Part shown: positions 1,996 to 11,435 of the stretch, in pieces | How positions within the stretch are numbered: position 1 is the stretch's first letter | How the letters are laid out: each line of letters starts with the position of its first letter | NCBI GenBank assembly: GCA_902386205.1 | Contig: CABMIH010000013.1 | Span: 1-34,267, forward strand | DNA length: 34,267 nucleotides | Origin: an uncultured archaeon | GTDB lineage: Archaea; Halobacteriota; Methanosarcinia; Methanosarcinales; Methanoperedenaceae | Direction: 5' to 3' | Notes under the pieces: generated by a model | What the model saw: only the letters and a program-made list of their open reading frames with translations | Database searches by the model: none | What the model was told of the DNA's origin: nothing | Translations under genes and position numbers: made by a program

Positions 1996-3087
1996 ATGGA
2001 AGAACTCTATCAGATAATAGAAAAAATAAAGATTTCAAAGGAACTGGATTTTGAAGACGGCATGCTCCTCATGGAATCAAGAAACCTCCCGCTCATCGGG
2101 GCGCTTGCGGATTACGTACGCAAAAAAAGCGTGGGAGAAAGGGTCTTGTTTATAAATAACTACCACATAAACTATTCCAACGTCTGCACTTCAAAATGCA
2201 GGTTTTGCGCATATTTCAGGGAAGAAGGACAGGAAGGGGCTTTTACTCTTACAGTTGACGAGATAATGGAAAAAGCAGAAAAAGCCAGGAGCTTTGGCGC
2301 TACAGAACTGCACATCGTGGGCTCGCTCAATCCCGGGCTTCCTTTTGAATATTACGAAAATGTGCTCAGAAGTGTTCATGAAAAGTATCCTTCGATGTCC
2401 CTTAAGGCATACACGGCAGTTGAGATCGCCTACCTTGCAGATACAACAGGGATGGGCGTCAGGGAAGTATTGCTGCGCCTGAAAAAAGCAGGGCTCAGCG
2501 GTCTTCCTGGAGGGGGAGGGGAGATTTTCAATGAAGAGACACGAAAAAAGGTCTGTCCTGAAAAGATAAGCGGTGAACGATGGCTTGATATCATGGAAAC
2601 CGCCCACAGGCTGGGAATAAAAAGCAATGCTACGATGCTATACGGCCATATCGAAACGCCGGAGGACATTGTAGACCATATACTCAGGATAAGAACACTC
2701 CAGAAAAAGACGGGCGGTTTCCAGGCATTTATCCCTTTAAGATTCCATCCCGATAACACGGAGCTTCAAAAAAACGGGATCGTCAGATTCGGCCCCACAG
2801 GTTTTGACGACCTTAAGGTGATCGCAGTTTCACGCCTTTTATTGAACGGCTATGTCAACAATATCAAGACATACTGGGTCATGGTTGGCGAGAAGCTTGC
2901 GCAGGTCGCGCTCCATTACGGTGCGAACGATATCCATGGTACTGTCATGGAAGAACGCATTACGCATGCAGCCGGGGGTGCCACGCCTGAGTATATGCCA
3001 AAAGAAAGGTTGATCCATTTAATAAGGAACGCCGGCAGGATACCTGTGGAAAGGACTACGAATTATGAAGTGATATGCGAGTATTGA
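1996..3087 (+). CDS. mqnE: Aminofutalosine synthase MqnE (radical SAM)
   Basis: From ATG 1996 the product is 363 residues, the usual MqnE size; an upstream in-frame TTG at 1891 would overlap the previous gene and add an unrelated-looking tail. The radical SAM cluster motif CTSKCRFC gives Cys64, Cys68 and Cys71. Later family blocks are ELHIVGSLNPGLPFEYY, KAYTAVEI, GLPGGGGEIF, ATMLYGHIETPEDIVDH, KKTGGFQAFIPLRFHP and YWVMVGEKLAQVALHYGANDIHGTV, which distinguish MqnE from MqnC and CofH. MqnE joins a chorismate-derived enolpyruvyl benzoate to SAM to form aminofutalosine, an early step of menaquinone synthesis in the cytoplasm. Menaquinone is typical of Methanoperedens and not of most methanogens, which use methanophenazine. 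Confidence 0.92.
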   Translation: MEELYQIIEKIKISKELDFEDGMLLMESRNLPLIGALADYVRKKSVGERVLFINNYHINYSNVCTSKCRFCAYFREEGQEGAFTLTVDEIMEKAEKARSFGATELHIVGSLNPGLPFEYYENVLRSVHEKYPSMSLKAYTAVEIAYLADTTGMGVREVLLRLKKAGLSGLPGGGGEIFNEETRKKVCPEKISGERWLDIMETAHRLGIKSNATMLYGHIETPEDIVDHILRIRTLQKKTGGFQAFIPLRFHPDNTELQKNGIVRFGPTGFDDLKVIAVSRLLLNGYVNNIKTYWVMVGEKLAQVALHYGANDIHGTVMEERITHAAGGATPEYMPKERLIHLIRNAGRIPVERTTNYEVICEY

Positions 3088-3095
3088 GATATAAT

Positions 3096-3172
3096 GAACC
3101 TGATGCGAACCTCATCGAACCCCGGAGAACCTCGAGCGAACATTTTATGAATTTAGAGAACATAATATGAAC
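3096..3172 (+). promoter_or_regulatory. Helically phased GAAC(C) array upstream of and into the RHH gene start
   Basis: GAACC occurs at 3096, 3107, 3117 and 3127, and GAAC at 3138, 3158 and 3169; a degenerate GAATT sits at 3149. Spacings are 11, 10, 10, 11, 11, 9 and 11, a mean near 10.4, which is one B-DNA turn. All copies lie on the same strand and therefore on one helix face. The last box overlaps the ATG of the downstream ribbon-helix-helix gene (3167). The array fits a cooperative operator for that protein, since RHH repressors often bind iterated direct repeats. The spacing is direct observation; autoregulation is inference. Confidence 0.6.
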
Positions 3173-3535
3173 ACAATGAAAACCTTCTCTATCAGGCTCG
3201 ATGAAGAGCTTTTTCAAAAATTGGAATCGGGGAGAGGAGAAAAACCAAGGGCCGATTATATAAGAGAGGTTCTCTTATTGCATTTTAAAGAACCTGATGC
3301 GAACCCCATCGAACCTCAAACGAACCTCATTAACGAAATTGATTCTTTAAAAGGTGAATTAACACACAAAGAACAAATAATCAAAATAATGGATGATAGA
3401 GTAAAAGACCTGCAAAATCACAATGGCTTTTTGATCAGTGAGTATAGCAGGTTAACCAGGTTAAACGAACAATTACTCTTGCCACCTCCACCAATTGAAC
3501 CTGTTAAAAAATGGTGGCAAATCTGGAAGAAATGA
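3167..3535 (+). CDS. Ribbon-helix-helix protein with coiled coil and aromatic-basic tail
   Basis: A 122-residue protein in three parts. Residues 4-42 (KTFSIRLDEELFQKLE ... RADYIREVLLLHF) match a ribbon-helix-helix (CopG/Arc-type) DNA-binding domain. Residues 43-56 are an E/N-P-rich linker encoded by a second GAACC array. Residues about 57-105 are a heptad-like coiled coil, and the end is PPPPIEP followed by KKWWQIWKK. A Trp-rich basic tail after a coiled coil occurs in several plasmid and mobile-element proteins, but I cannot name the family. ATG 3167 and ATG 3176 are both possible starts; no strong ribosome site is seen. It sits alone between mqnE and a convergent membrane gene. A self-regulating DNA-binding protein is the simplest reading, and a partition or element-maintenance role is an alternative. 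Confidence 0.75.
   Translation: MNTMKTFSIRLDEELFQKLESGRGEKPRADYIREVLLLHFKEPDANPIEPQTNLINEIDSLKGELTHKEQIIKIMDDRVKDLQNHNGFLISEYSRLTRLNEQLLLPPPPIEPVKKWWQIWKK
3290..3326 (+). repeat. Intragenic copy of the GAACC array
   Basis: GAACC at 3290, 3301, 3311 and 3322 (spacing 11, 10, 11). Positions 3290-3316 match 3096-3122 at all but two sites, including an identical 16-nt start GAACCTGATGCGAACC. It encodes the linker EPDANPIEPQTN between the RHH domain and the coiled coil. Confidence 0.8.
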
Positions 3536-7595: not shown

Positions 7596-8812
7596 TGAAT
7601 CCAGAGACATCCCCAAATTCTCCCCGGACTCATCAACAACCGAAAAAGGTGATCACTGGAGACCATGCAGTCGCAATAGGCGCAAAACTCTGCCGTGTGG
7701 ATGTGGTGCCTGCCTATCCCATCACGCCGCAAACCCTTATTATCGAGCATATAGCGGATTTTGTTAGCGATGGGGAACTGGATGCAAAGTTCCTCACAAT
7801 GGAGTCGGAGCATAGCGTCATGAGCGCCGCTGCTGCCGCTTCTGCCTCGGGAGCAAGGGTATTCACAGCAACGTCGTCCCAGGGACTGGCCTTCATGCAT
7901 GAGATGCTTTATGCTACCGCGCCCCTTCGCCTTCCAGTAGTGATGGCGAACGCCAGCCGAACGTTAGGAGGCCCGCCGGGTATCTGGTGCGAGTACAATG
8001 ATTCCATGGGAGCGCGGGATTCAGGGTGGCTCCAGCTTTACGTGGAAGACAACCAGGAGGCGCTGGATATGGTCATCCAGTGTTTCAGGATCGCAGAGGA
8101 CAAACGGGTACTGCTGCCGGTAATGCCATGCCTTGACGGTTTCGTGCTCACTCATACGGTCGAGCCGGTGGAAGTCCCGGAACAGGAGGAGGTGGATTTA
8201 TTTTTGCCTGCTTATATACCGGATATTACACTTGACCCTGCAAGACCTTCAATGATCGGGACGTTCATGCCCGCAGAGTACATAATGGAACTGCGCAGGC
8301 AGACTGCCGGAGCCATGGAATCTGCAAAGAAAGCCATCGGGGAAATAAATGATGAATTTGCCAGGAGGTTTGGAAGGAATTACGGCGGGCTGATCGATAC
8401 GTACCGGATGGAGGATGCAGAGATTGCATTGATAACCATGGGTACTGTTACCAGCACCTCGCGCGATGTAGTTGATGAACTGCGAAGGGAGGGAAGAAAG
8501 GTGGGCCTTGTAAAGCTTCGTTTCTTCAGGCCGTTCCCGTCCGAGGAATTGAGAAAAGTCTTATCAGGCGTAAGCGCTGTCGGGGTCTTTGACCGTTCGA
8601 TATCCTTTCAGGGAGGGGGGCAGTCGTATAATGAGGTTCGTTCTGCGCTTTTTGGTATGACAATTCCGATTATCAATCATCTTGCCGGCCTTGGCGGGAG
8701 GGACGTTACAAGGGAGCAGATAATGAAAATGTTCGAGATAACGCTTAAAGCTGCAAAAGGTGAAAAAGTGAACCTGGTGAACTGGCATAACACGCGAGGT
8801 GAGACTTTATGA
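7595..8812 (+). CDS. porA: Pyruvate:ferredoxin oxidoreductase alpha subunit
   Basis: A 405-residue alpha chain starting at ATG 7595, which overlaps the porGD stop by one base; a TTG one codon upstream is the alternative. Key blocks are GDHAVAIGAKLCRVDVVPAYPITPQTLIIEHIADF, MESEHSVMSAAAAASASGARVFTATSSQGLAFMHEML and VMANASRTLGGPPGIWCEYNDSMGARDSGW, which form the pyrimidine-binding side of the thiamine diphosphate site. The C-terminal half has the transketolase C-like domain (GTVTSTSRDVVDELRREGRKVGLVKLRFFRPFPSEEL, then GVFDRSISF). It is part of the cytoplasmic POR complex with porGD and porB and uses ferredoxin. ATGA overlap with porB indicates coupled translation. Confidence 0.93.
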   Translation: MNPETSPNSPRTHQQPKKVITGDHAVAIGAKLCRVDVVPAYPITPQTLIIEHIADFVSDGELDAKFLTMESEHSVMSAAAAASASGARVFTATSSQGLAFMHEMLYATAPLRLPVVMANASRTLGGPPGIWCEYNDSMGARDSGWLQLYVEDNQEALDMVIQCFRIAEDKRVLLPVMPCLDGFVLTHTVEPVEVPEQEEVDLFLPAYIPDITLDPARPSMIGTFMPAEYIMELRRQTAGAMESAKKAIGEINDEFARRFGRNYGGLIDTYRMEDAEIALITMGTVTSTSRDVVDELRREGRKVGLVKLRFFRPFPSEELRKVLSGVSAVGVFDRSISFQGGGQSYNEVRSALFGMTIPIINHLAGLGGRDVTREQIMKMFEITLKAAKGEKVNLVNWHNTRGETL

Positions 8813-9771
8813 TCACTATCAAGGAACTGTCTGATGACAATCTCTTCACGGCAGGCCATACGGCTTGTCCTGGATGCGGCGTTGCGATGTCCATAAGGAA
8901 TGCTATACGCGTTCTGGGGAAGGATGCGGCTGTGTACGTCCCCGCAAGCTGCGCGGTCGTGTTTGGTACCACGTTCCCTTATGGGGCGTGGAAAGTGCCC
9001 TTCTTCCACACAGCCTTTGAGAATACAGGCGCATGTTTAACGGGCATGCAGGCTGCATTTGAAAAGAAAGGAAAACAGGTAATTTCTGTCGGGTTTGCAG
9101 GGGATGGGGGAACGTATGATATCGGTCTCCAGAGCATGTCGGGGGCTGCCGAGCGAAATGAGGATGTACTTTATATCTGCCTCGATAATGAAGCTTATAT
9201 GAACACGGGAATACAGCGAAGCGGCGGAACACCCTTCGGTGCATGGACCACGACCACGCCCGTGGGCACTAAGATCCAGGGCAACCGGAGGTTCAAGAAA
9301 AACCTTGGCGACATTGTGGCCGCGCACGAGATACCTTATTATGCCACGCTTTCCATCGGCCATCCGCTTGATTTCATAAGGAAAGTGGAAAAGGCAAAGA
9401 ACATCAGGGGATTCCGTTTCCTCCATATGTTCACGCCATGCATCCCGGGCTGGAAGATGGATCCTGCAAAGACCGTAGAGGTCACAAAACGCGCGGTGGA
9501 AAGCGGGATGTGGACACTCTACGAGGTCGAGAACGGCGAGAAAAAGATAACCTATAAGCCTGGGAAGATGAAATCGGTGAAAGACTATTTGATGATGCAG
9601 GGAAGGTTCAGGCACATGAGCGAGGAAGACATAAAGAAACTCCAGATGTGGGTGTGCAGGAAATGGAACCTACATTATAAGGAAAAAGGGGCGCCACAGA
9701 TATGCGAGATTGCGCCCCCCGAGGAACATCATGCTGTCACAGAAGAACACAGGGAGATGCACGGACCATGA
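8809..9771 (+). CDS. porB: Pyruvate:ferredoxin oxidoreductase beta subunit
   Basis: A 320-residue beta chain. It carries the thiamine diphosphate motif VGFAGDGGTYDIGLQ with the downstream DNEAYMNTGIQRSGGTPFGAWTTTTPVG, a stretch typical of PorB. Cluster-ligand cysteines are seen in CPGCGVAM, in PASCAVV and in FTPCIPGW. GAGGTGA (8796-8802) precedes ATG 8809, which overlaps the porA stop (ATGA). The tail is His/Glu-rich. With porA and porGD it completes a POR that can supply reduced ferredoxin or make pyruvate from acetyl-CoA. Confidence 0.93.
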   Translation: MITIKELSDDNLFTAGHTACPGCGVAMSIRNAIRVLGKDAAVYVPASCAVVFGTTFPYGAWKVPFFHTAFENTGACLTGMQAAFEKKGKQVISVGFAGDGGTYDIGLQSMSGAAERNEDVLYICLDNEAYMNTGIQRSGGTPFGAWTTTTPVGTKIQGNRRFKKNLGDIVAAHEIPYYATLSIGHPLDFIRKVEKAKNIRGFRFLHMFTPCIPGWKMDPAKTVEVTKRAVESGMWTLYEVENGEKKITYKPGKMKSVKDYLMMQGRFRHMSEEDIKKLQMWVCRKWNLHYKEKGAPQICEIAPPEEHHAVTEEHREMHGP

Positions 9772-10557: not shown

Positions 10558-11435
10558 TTAGGCGATTCTGAACATTCCATCGATTCAATACACATACATA
10601 TTCCCATACGGTCGATGCGACAGCAGCACCAGTTTCGTGAACTTCCCACTCCTAACTTCATTGAAATCGAACCCGAAATGCTCACAATAGTCCCTAAGAG
10701 ATTAATGAAAAAATGAAAACAAATGGCATGATAATAGTATTTTCAGGTAGAAAATACGTAATAATTGATACTACCGCAGTTCCAGTTGACATCAATACAT
10801 GGAGAAAAAGGTTCGAGATCGGTAAAGGCAAAAAATATACCTGGTCTTATTCATCATCCTGCGGCTATTATGTGGGCTGCAAGCTCATCCTGGCGATTGA
10901 TGCCATAACCTACGATATATTGGGTTTTGAGATCTACGATGGTTCCCCGAATGATGCAAAACTCCTGGAAAGATTTATCGAACATCTCTGTAATTCCAGA
11001 AAACTGAGAATGGGAGACTTTGTAATTTGTGATAGAGGTTTTACTTCGAAGGAGAATTACCATATTTTGATCAGCAGATTTTTATTGGTTCCTATGATAT
11101 TTGCCAGAAAGAACACTGATCTAAAGCGAATATTGGCAACCCTAACGCCGCCTCTCGATATCTGGAATGGTAAGCCATATTTATTAGATATTTGGAAGAA
11201 GATTGTTAGAGAATTTATTCAAATCGCAGAAATATGGCCAGGTTTTAAAGAGATCAGATCAAATATTGAACTTTTTTTCAATGTCGCAAAAAACTGTGTG
11301 CGGCTGAACAAGGTTCACCAGTTCACAAAAGAAAGTATATTAAAGAAGGTTATTAGAGCTTTTCATTTAACTTCTGAGCTCATAAGAACCGCTAAATTGT
11401 TTAATATAGGCGTCAGAGAGCTTGCCGAGATGTAG
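10558..11435 (+). pseudogene. Degenerate DDE transposase (IS4/IS5-type), frameshifted
   Basis: The open part from 10713 encodes 240 residues with DDE blocks: VIIDTTAVPVD (first Asp), FEIYDGSPNDAKLLERFIEHL, MGDFVICDRGFTSKENY (second Asp) and IRSNIELFFNVAKN (candidate Glu). Just upstream, frame 10558-10710 reads a protein-like stretch including MRQQHQFRELPTPNFIEIEPEMLTIVPKRLMKK and then hits TGA. The two pieces are in different frames, so the N-terminal part has been cut off by a frameshift, and the true start is missing. I could not identify terminal inverted repeats or a target duplication. The copy is probably inactive. It separates the redox cluster from the minus-strand rhomboid group. Confidence 0.75.

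Follow-up and report, generated by a model that had tools for sequence, protein, structure and literature searches.

What purpose is served when a short DNA repeat, phased with the helix, occurs both in front of a gene and again among its codons? This question is raised by a small gene of the ribbon-helix-helix (RHH) class in the stretch of archaeal DNA analysed here (34,267 nucleotides, hereafter the window). The layout of the gene and of its relatives suggests that such proteins bind their own genes, which they probably regulate, and perhaps anchor or share out plasmids at cell division.

Two helically phased arrays at one gene

The gene (3176 to 3535, + strand) encodes a protein of 119 residues, composed of an RHH domain (residues 1–37), a linker, a coiled-coil helix (45–101) and the tail KKWWQIWKK. 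The upstream array (3096 to 3172, + strand) contains GAACC boxes at 3096, 3107, 3117 and 3127, GAAC boxes at 3138, 3158 and 3169, and a degenerate GAAT box at 3149. It fills the gap between the CofH-like gene, with its stop at 3087, and the start codon. The internal array (3290 to 3326, + strand) consists of GAACC boxes at 3290, 3301, 3311 and 3322. An earlier sequence-only reading had claimed upstream spacings of 11, 10, 10, 11, 11, 9 and 11 bp, which our recount reproduced exactly. Its four internal boxes, spaced by 11, 10 and 11 bp, were likewise recovered, and the two arrays are identical at 25 of their first 27 positions, in agreement with the claimed match at all but two.

That reading also placed the upstream array over the start codon. 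An ATG does occur at 3167, but CTG and AAG stand at this place in the two closest orthologues, L021 and L022, while the ATG at 3176 is common to all three genes and the N-terminus of the family is M-K/R-T. The start codon is therefore 3176 and not 3167, so the array lies upstream, as proposed, but ends just before the start. Similarly, the internal boxes do encode the linker, yet they extend beyond it: numbered from 3176, they specify residues 39–51, which include the first turns of the long helix.

A TATA-like sequence, TTTTAT (3143 to 3148, + strand), is embedded in the upstream array as a putative promoter element, with five boxes upstream and two downstream. The degenerate GAAT box at 3149 adjoins the TATA-like TTTAT(A). 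When the whole window was shuffled 300 times with dinucleotides preserved, and a chain was defined as boxes spaced by 9–12 bp, the longest GAACC chain in any shuffle was two boxes, as against two chains of four in the window. GAAC chains never exceeded three in the shuffles, compared with five in the window. Of the 5-mers in the window, only GAACC has chains that reach four boxes, the greatest length for a 5-mer. An Rfam scan of the locus gave no match.

The encoded protein

In the AlphaFold2 model of the window protein (mean pLDDT 80.7, pTM 0.38), helices at residues 10–20 and 25–37 are followed by a short linker, the long helix 45–101 and a short helix in the tail. NikR and CopG chains gave weak profile matches over positions 1–48, and one relative, L141, scored above the Pfam RHH_1 cut-off. 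Together with the β-helix-helix N-terminus, the profile matches assign the family to the RHH proteins (CopG/Arc/NikR), bearing out the identity first proposed; the window protein itself is predicted to belong there by its family and its model. Searched alone against Pfam, it matched neither RHH nor DUF536, and a fold search of the PDB yielded no match below E 7. DUF536 was matched by three relatives, all below the Pfam cut-off (best 16.2 versus 20.7 bits) and over half of the profile only. The W-W-x-F-W tail is aromatic, basic and nearly invariant in the family.

The window copy is flanked by a CofH-like radical SAM gene upstream and a VTT-domain gene on the other side. These neighbours are chromosomal, and no partition or replication gene lies beside it. 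Elsewhere in the window, an ORF at 10713 to 11435 reads like a putative IS transposase.

Conservation in close orthologues

Both arrays are kept in the orthologues from genome G008 (L021, Candidatus Methanoperedens MnB_21; protein 91% identical) and genome G030 (L022; 84% identical). Across the trio, whole upstream boxes have been gained or lost and the 9–12 bp steps retained. The TATA-like element lies at −32 in all three genes (TTTATA in both orthologues), as do boxes at −18 and −7, and L021 and L022 bear one additional box at +4. The internal boxes are located at +114, +125, +135 and +146, the first being missing in L022. No triple GAACC array occurs elsewhere in the three genomes. The distance between the upstream and internal arrays amounts to half-integral turns in the trio, about 10.5 or 11.5, so that the two would not form a single continuous face on straight DNA. 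No RHH gene follows cofH at the other cofH loci compared in the genus. In G030, gene and array have other DNA as their neighbours; the gene and arrays therefore travel together.

The sequence-only reading had asked whether array, spacing and internal copy are conserved in homologues. They are, in both close orthologues and, with a different box, in many distant relatives. This conservation strongly supports a function of both array copies at the level of DNA, and the encoded RHH protein is their likely ligand.

A second phased repeat, with ACGAACT boxes 10–11 bp apart, is dispersed between genes in the genome of the window (L005, L006, L012–L015 and L019) and is also present on the downstream side of the gene in L070. 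In L014, L015 and L070, the copies continue into inverted AGTTCGT boxes and are predicted to form strong hairpins (z −3.3 to −7.2); Rfam gave no match on the scanned loci of this repeat. We weighed these arrays as additional targets but discarded them, as those examined are intergenic and hairpin-forming and have a different box.

A family with private boxes

Alignment-based searches revealed a family in which an RHH domain is followed by a linker, a coiled coil and a W[WY]x[FIL]W tail. It ranges over the Methanosarcinales and some archaeal viruses and plasmids. Of 31 Methanoperedens genomes, 24 contain relatives, which also occur in Methanosarcinaceae and, in at least one case (L141), in another class of the phylum. 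The box common to promoter and linker DNA differs from gene to gene. It is GAACC in the window, ATCCCA in L093, GGATA(CA) in L169, GGGAA(A) in L167, AGGAA in L160, CTCCC in L136, GAACCC in L141, GATC[CT] in L158, GAATA(C)(A) in L033, TTTACAA in the viral L198, TAACA in L097 and TAGC in L072. These box names were picked by eye after inspection, and the statistical tests are independent of them. The box and the linker peptide co-vary, presumably because the linker is the one place in the protein that tolerates sequence change.

For tests across genes, we used 22 non-redundant members from clusters at 55% protein identity, each cluster being represented by one member as listed, not at random. Upstream DNA matches linker-coding DNA in about half of them, and in the other half the match is not clear. 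Across this set, the agreement of upstream DNA with the gene's own coding sequence was greater than in any of 20,000 permutations, whether k was 6, 7 or 8, and the own coding sequence ranked first in 9–10 of the 22 genes, where one was expected. The upstream DNA of L096 appears to hold a decayed gene copy; without this gene the permutation result stands (105 observed, against 81 in the largest permutation). In seven genes (the window gene, L093, L033, L095, L169, L167 and L198), the own coding sequence also surpassed every DNA tile from the same locus; in a further two it surpassed most of them. When genes were tested singly, by 6-mer matches between upstream and linker DNA against synonymous recoding, the window gene, both of its orthologues, L093 and L072 each gave p = 0.001, L033 gave 0.002 and L096 gave 0.009; many other members were not significant.

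The helical phasing is likewise a property of the family. Repeated 5-mers at lags 10 and 11 numbered 41 and 49 in upstream DNA, against about 6 expected, and 52 and 56 in linker-coding DNA, against 9–10 after synonymous recoding. Additional excess was found at lags 20–23 and 31–32, and at 42 in the linkers. In control RHH genes without the tail, coding DNA gave counts of 5 at lag 10 and 4 at lag 11, and upstream DNA gave 7 and 18, with some excess at 11, while 142 other ORFs showed a small lag excess at most. The 7-mers that match upstream DNA are densest at codons 46–60 (0.126, versus 0.027 with swapped upstreams). Coiled-coil heptads were rejected as the sole source of the internal periodicity, since neither 10 nor 11 bp is a whole number of codons and the counts exceed those after synonymous recoding.

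In L031, L029, L032 and L034, the linkers are built of 21-bp repeats (GAATAAnnnGAAGACnnn) whose number varies by species, and an upstream match is not clear.

Plasmid and viral settings

Several relatives reside on small contigs, for which circularity was judged by contig ends and repeats only. The 13.2-kb contig of L093 (L214) is probably circular, because its termini overlap by 18 bp, and it encodes a D5_N/DUF5906 protein. Triple ATCCCA arrays in the L093 genome are confined to this contig, where they occupy the promoter, the gene and a third site 2.4 kb away. The third array (11750–11775 of L214) lies in what appears to be the remnant of a further family gene. Seven L214 proteins yielded no actin-like or ParA domain. 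On the 18-kb contig of L160, which encodes a Toprim primase, the genes recur after about 9.03 kb, a pattern probably due to a circular plasmid assembled twice. The family gene on it (L160/L218, G149 C6) harbours two internal AGGAA arrays. The one at 8765–8884 has seven boxes at steady 10–11 bp steps; the one at 9063–9127 has ten boxes, is more loosely started, and lies in another linker, before a Cys-rich end.

Companion genes on other contigs encode Cdc6 (with L169), DNA polymerase A (L167), an integrase (L198) and a terminase (L199). A viral scan with the window protein as query gave no match, and two other queries recovered L198 and L199; a plasmid collection gave no match to two Methanosarcina relatives used as queries. 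The viral L199 is an RHH, coiled-coil and WWQFW gene preceded by two copies of TTGTTGTATACACAGT, and no upstream-linker match was found in it.

Comparison with known systems

CopG, ParG and omega are small RHH proteins that repress their own promoters. To our knowledge, they are without a coiled coil and aromatic tail, and we know of no matching array within their genes. RHH autorepressors of the ParG type are treated in PMC5016525.

The ParR/parC pair of ParMRC (R1, pB171, pSK41) also consists of an RHH protein and direct repeats, whose lengths are 10, 11 or 20 bp (PMC9426499, PMC5016525). The R1 partition operon has ten repeats around its promoter, according to a title cited in PMC5016525 and PMC9426499, and the specificity of ParR/parC differs between plasmid families and sets incompatibility (PMC9426499). 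The window gene shares the RHH protein and the promoter repeats, here flanking the TATA-like element in steps of 9–12 bp. In contrast to ParMRC, the present family adds an array in the coding sequence, the coiled coil and the W-W-x-F-W tail, and no gene for ParM or another ATPase lies beside the genes inspected; specifically, a ParM-like ATPase was found neither next to the window gene nor among seven L214 proteins.

In pSK1 Par and RocS, too, a DNA-binding domain precedes a coiled coil, there associated with DUF536, and the protein ends in a short tail that is aromatic or amphipathic; pSK1 Par is a single-protein partition system (PMC11500499). The tail of RocS binds the membrane, joining DNA to it (PMC13042908). 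The DNA-binding domain of these proteins is a winged HTH, whereas that of the present family is RHH, with DUF536 matched below the cut-off only. The internal array, present in our family, is not described for pSK1 Par or RocS in PMC11500499 and PMC13042908.

Binding sites for the encoded protein inside its own gene are known from lambda O (PMC5043065), which the putative sites reported here resemble only in their position within the gene. The lambda sites are 19-bp replication repeats, whereas those described here are boxes of 5–8 bp, one turn apart and repeated at the promoter. Borg elements, which are linked to Methanoperedens, also carry DNA repeats inside genes that make linkers (PMC9879509), and such repeats are reported to be virtually absent from the genomes of the Methanoperedens hosts (PMC9879509). 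They are identical, in-frame units joined head to tail, unlike the alternating 10 and 11 bp steps here (11, 10, 11 in the window), which are off the codon register and match the promoter, with family lags of 10 and 11 in excess of synonymous recoding.

Proposed mechanism and alternatives

We propose that a dimeric RHH protein binds two clusters of gene-specific boxes, one helical turn apart, in its own gene. The upstream cluster flanks the TATA-like element, and protein bound on either side of this element would block TBP and TFB and thereby repress the gene. The second cluster lies in the linker-coding DNA, and, with both occupied, a nucleoprotein patch would arise in cis. Multimerisation would be due to the coiled coil, while the aromatic, basic W-W-x-F-W-K tail would probably attach this patch to a surface, for which the membrane is the most likely candidate. 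On plasmids and viruses harbouring relatives, this arrangement could work like a centromere that needs a single protein, partitioning or anchoring each element by means of its private box; the window copy, in its chromosomal setting, would then be a resident or domesticated version. A partition role like that of pSK1 Par and RocS is suggested because several members are found on small plasmids or viruses. Autorepression is likely, and membrane attachment and partition are possible. We regard this explanation as a whole, from self-binding to partition, as somewhat favoured. More tentatively, and with doubt prevailing, the linker codons might be constrained to spell out the protein's own phased sites, so that coding DNA would form part of the centromere and gene, operator and centromere would change specificity together. 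The family would then be a class of archaeal segregation systems made of one protein, each plasmid with a code of its own.

Against the main explanation speak the half of the non-redundant members in which upstream and linker DNA do not clearly match, the chromosomal setting of the window copy, the half-turn offset of the arrays in the trio, the missing ATPase partner at the genes inspected and the DUF536 matches below cut-off. A chromosomal copy also fits with pure autoregulation, in which both arrays are operators, the internal one strengthens repression by looping or by blocking RNA polymerase, and the tail, with no part in partition or anchoring, is used for multimerisation or turnover. 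It is well known that RHH repressors act on repeated operators, and here the arrays frame a TATA-like element and are found at this gene only. This account nevertheless leaves unexplained why the W-W-x-F-W tail is so strict and why relatives on small plasmids and viruses have private boxes, and we consider it rather unlikely, though of some weight.

Two further explanations carry far less weight. The internal array could be a replication origin, with the RHH protein as the initiator or the initiator's regulator, given that the lambda origin lies inside the O gene, that plasmid iterons are often helix-phased (PMC5043065) and that some relatives are near genes for Cdc6, primase or DNA polymerase A. 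The family, however, has no initiator or helicase-loading domain, the elements bear replication genes of their own and the window copy is chromosomal, which makes this reading highly improbable. Alternatively, the linkers might have grown by neutral tandem repetition, the upstream array being a duplicated piece of coding DNA with no binding function. Strong 21-bp lags in linkers favour this, as do the four genes with 21-bp linker repeats and no clear upstream match, the apparently decayed copy upstream of L096, and the tandem repeats gained inside genes by Borg elements (PMC9879509). Yet the lags of 10, 11, 22 and 32 bp exceed synonymous recoding and would not arise from repeats of whole codons, the box varies by gene but agrees between its two places, and the phasing is kept while whole boxes come and go. 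We therefore hold neutral expansion to be very unlikely.

In these arrays, coding DNA obeys helical phasing as an additional constraint, which sequence alone is enough to reveal. The family also supplies many protein-box pairs for studying how RHH specificity evolves (GAACC, ATCCCA, GGATACA, GGGAAA, AGGAA, GAATACA, TTTACAA and CTCCC). If the partition role is true, methanogens and methane-oxidising archaea could keep plasmids by a system without an ATPase of its own, which would offer a simple test bed for one-protein partition.

The Methanosarcina genomes G165, G159, G149 and G155 each contain 10–19 matches to the family. Many of these are short or interrupted by stop codons, which looks like the trace of numerous elements that arrived and then decayed.
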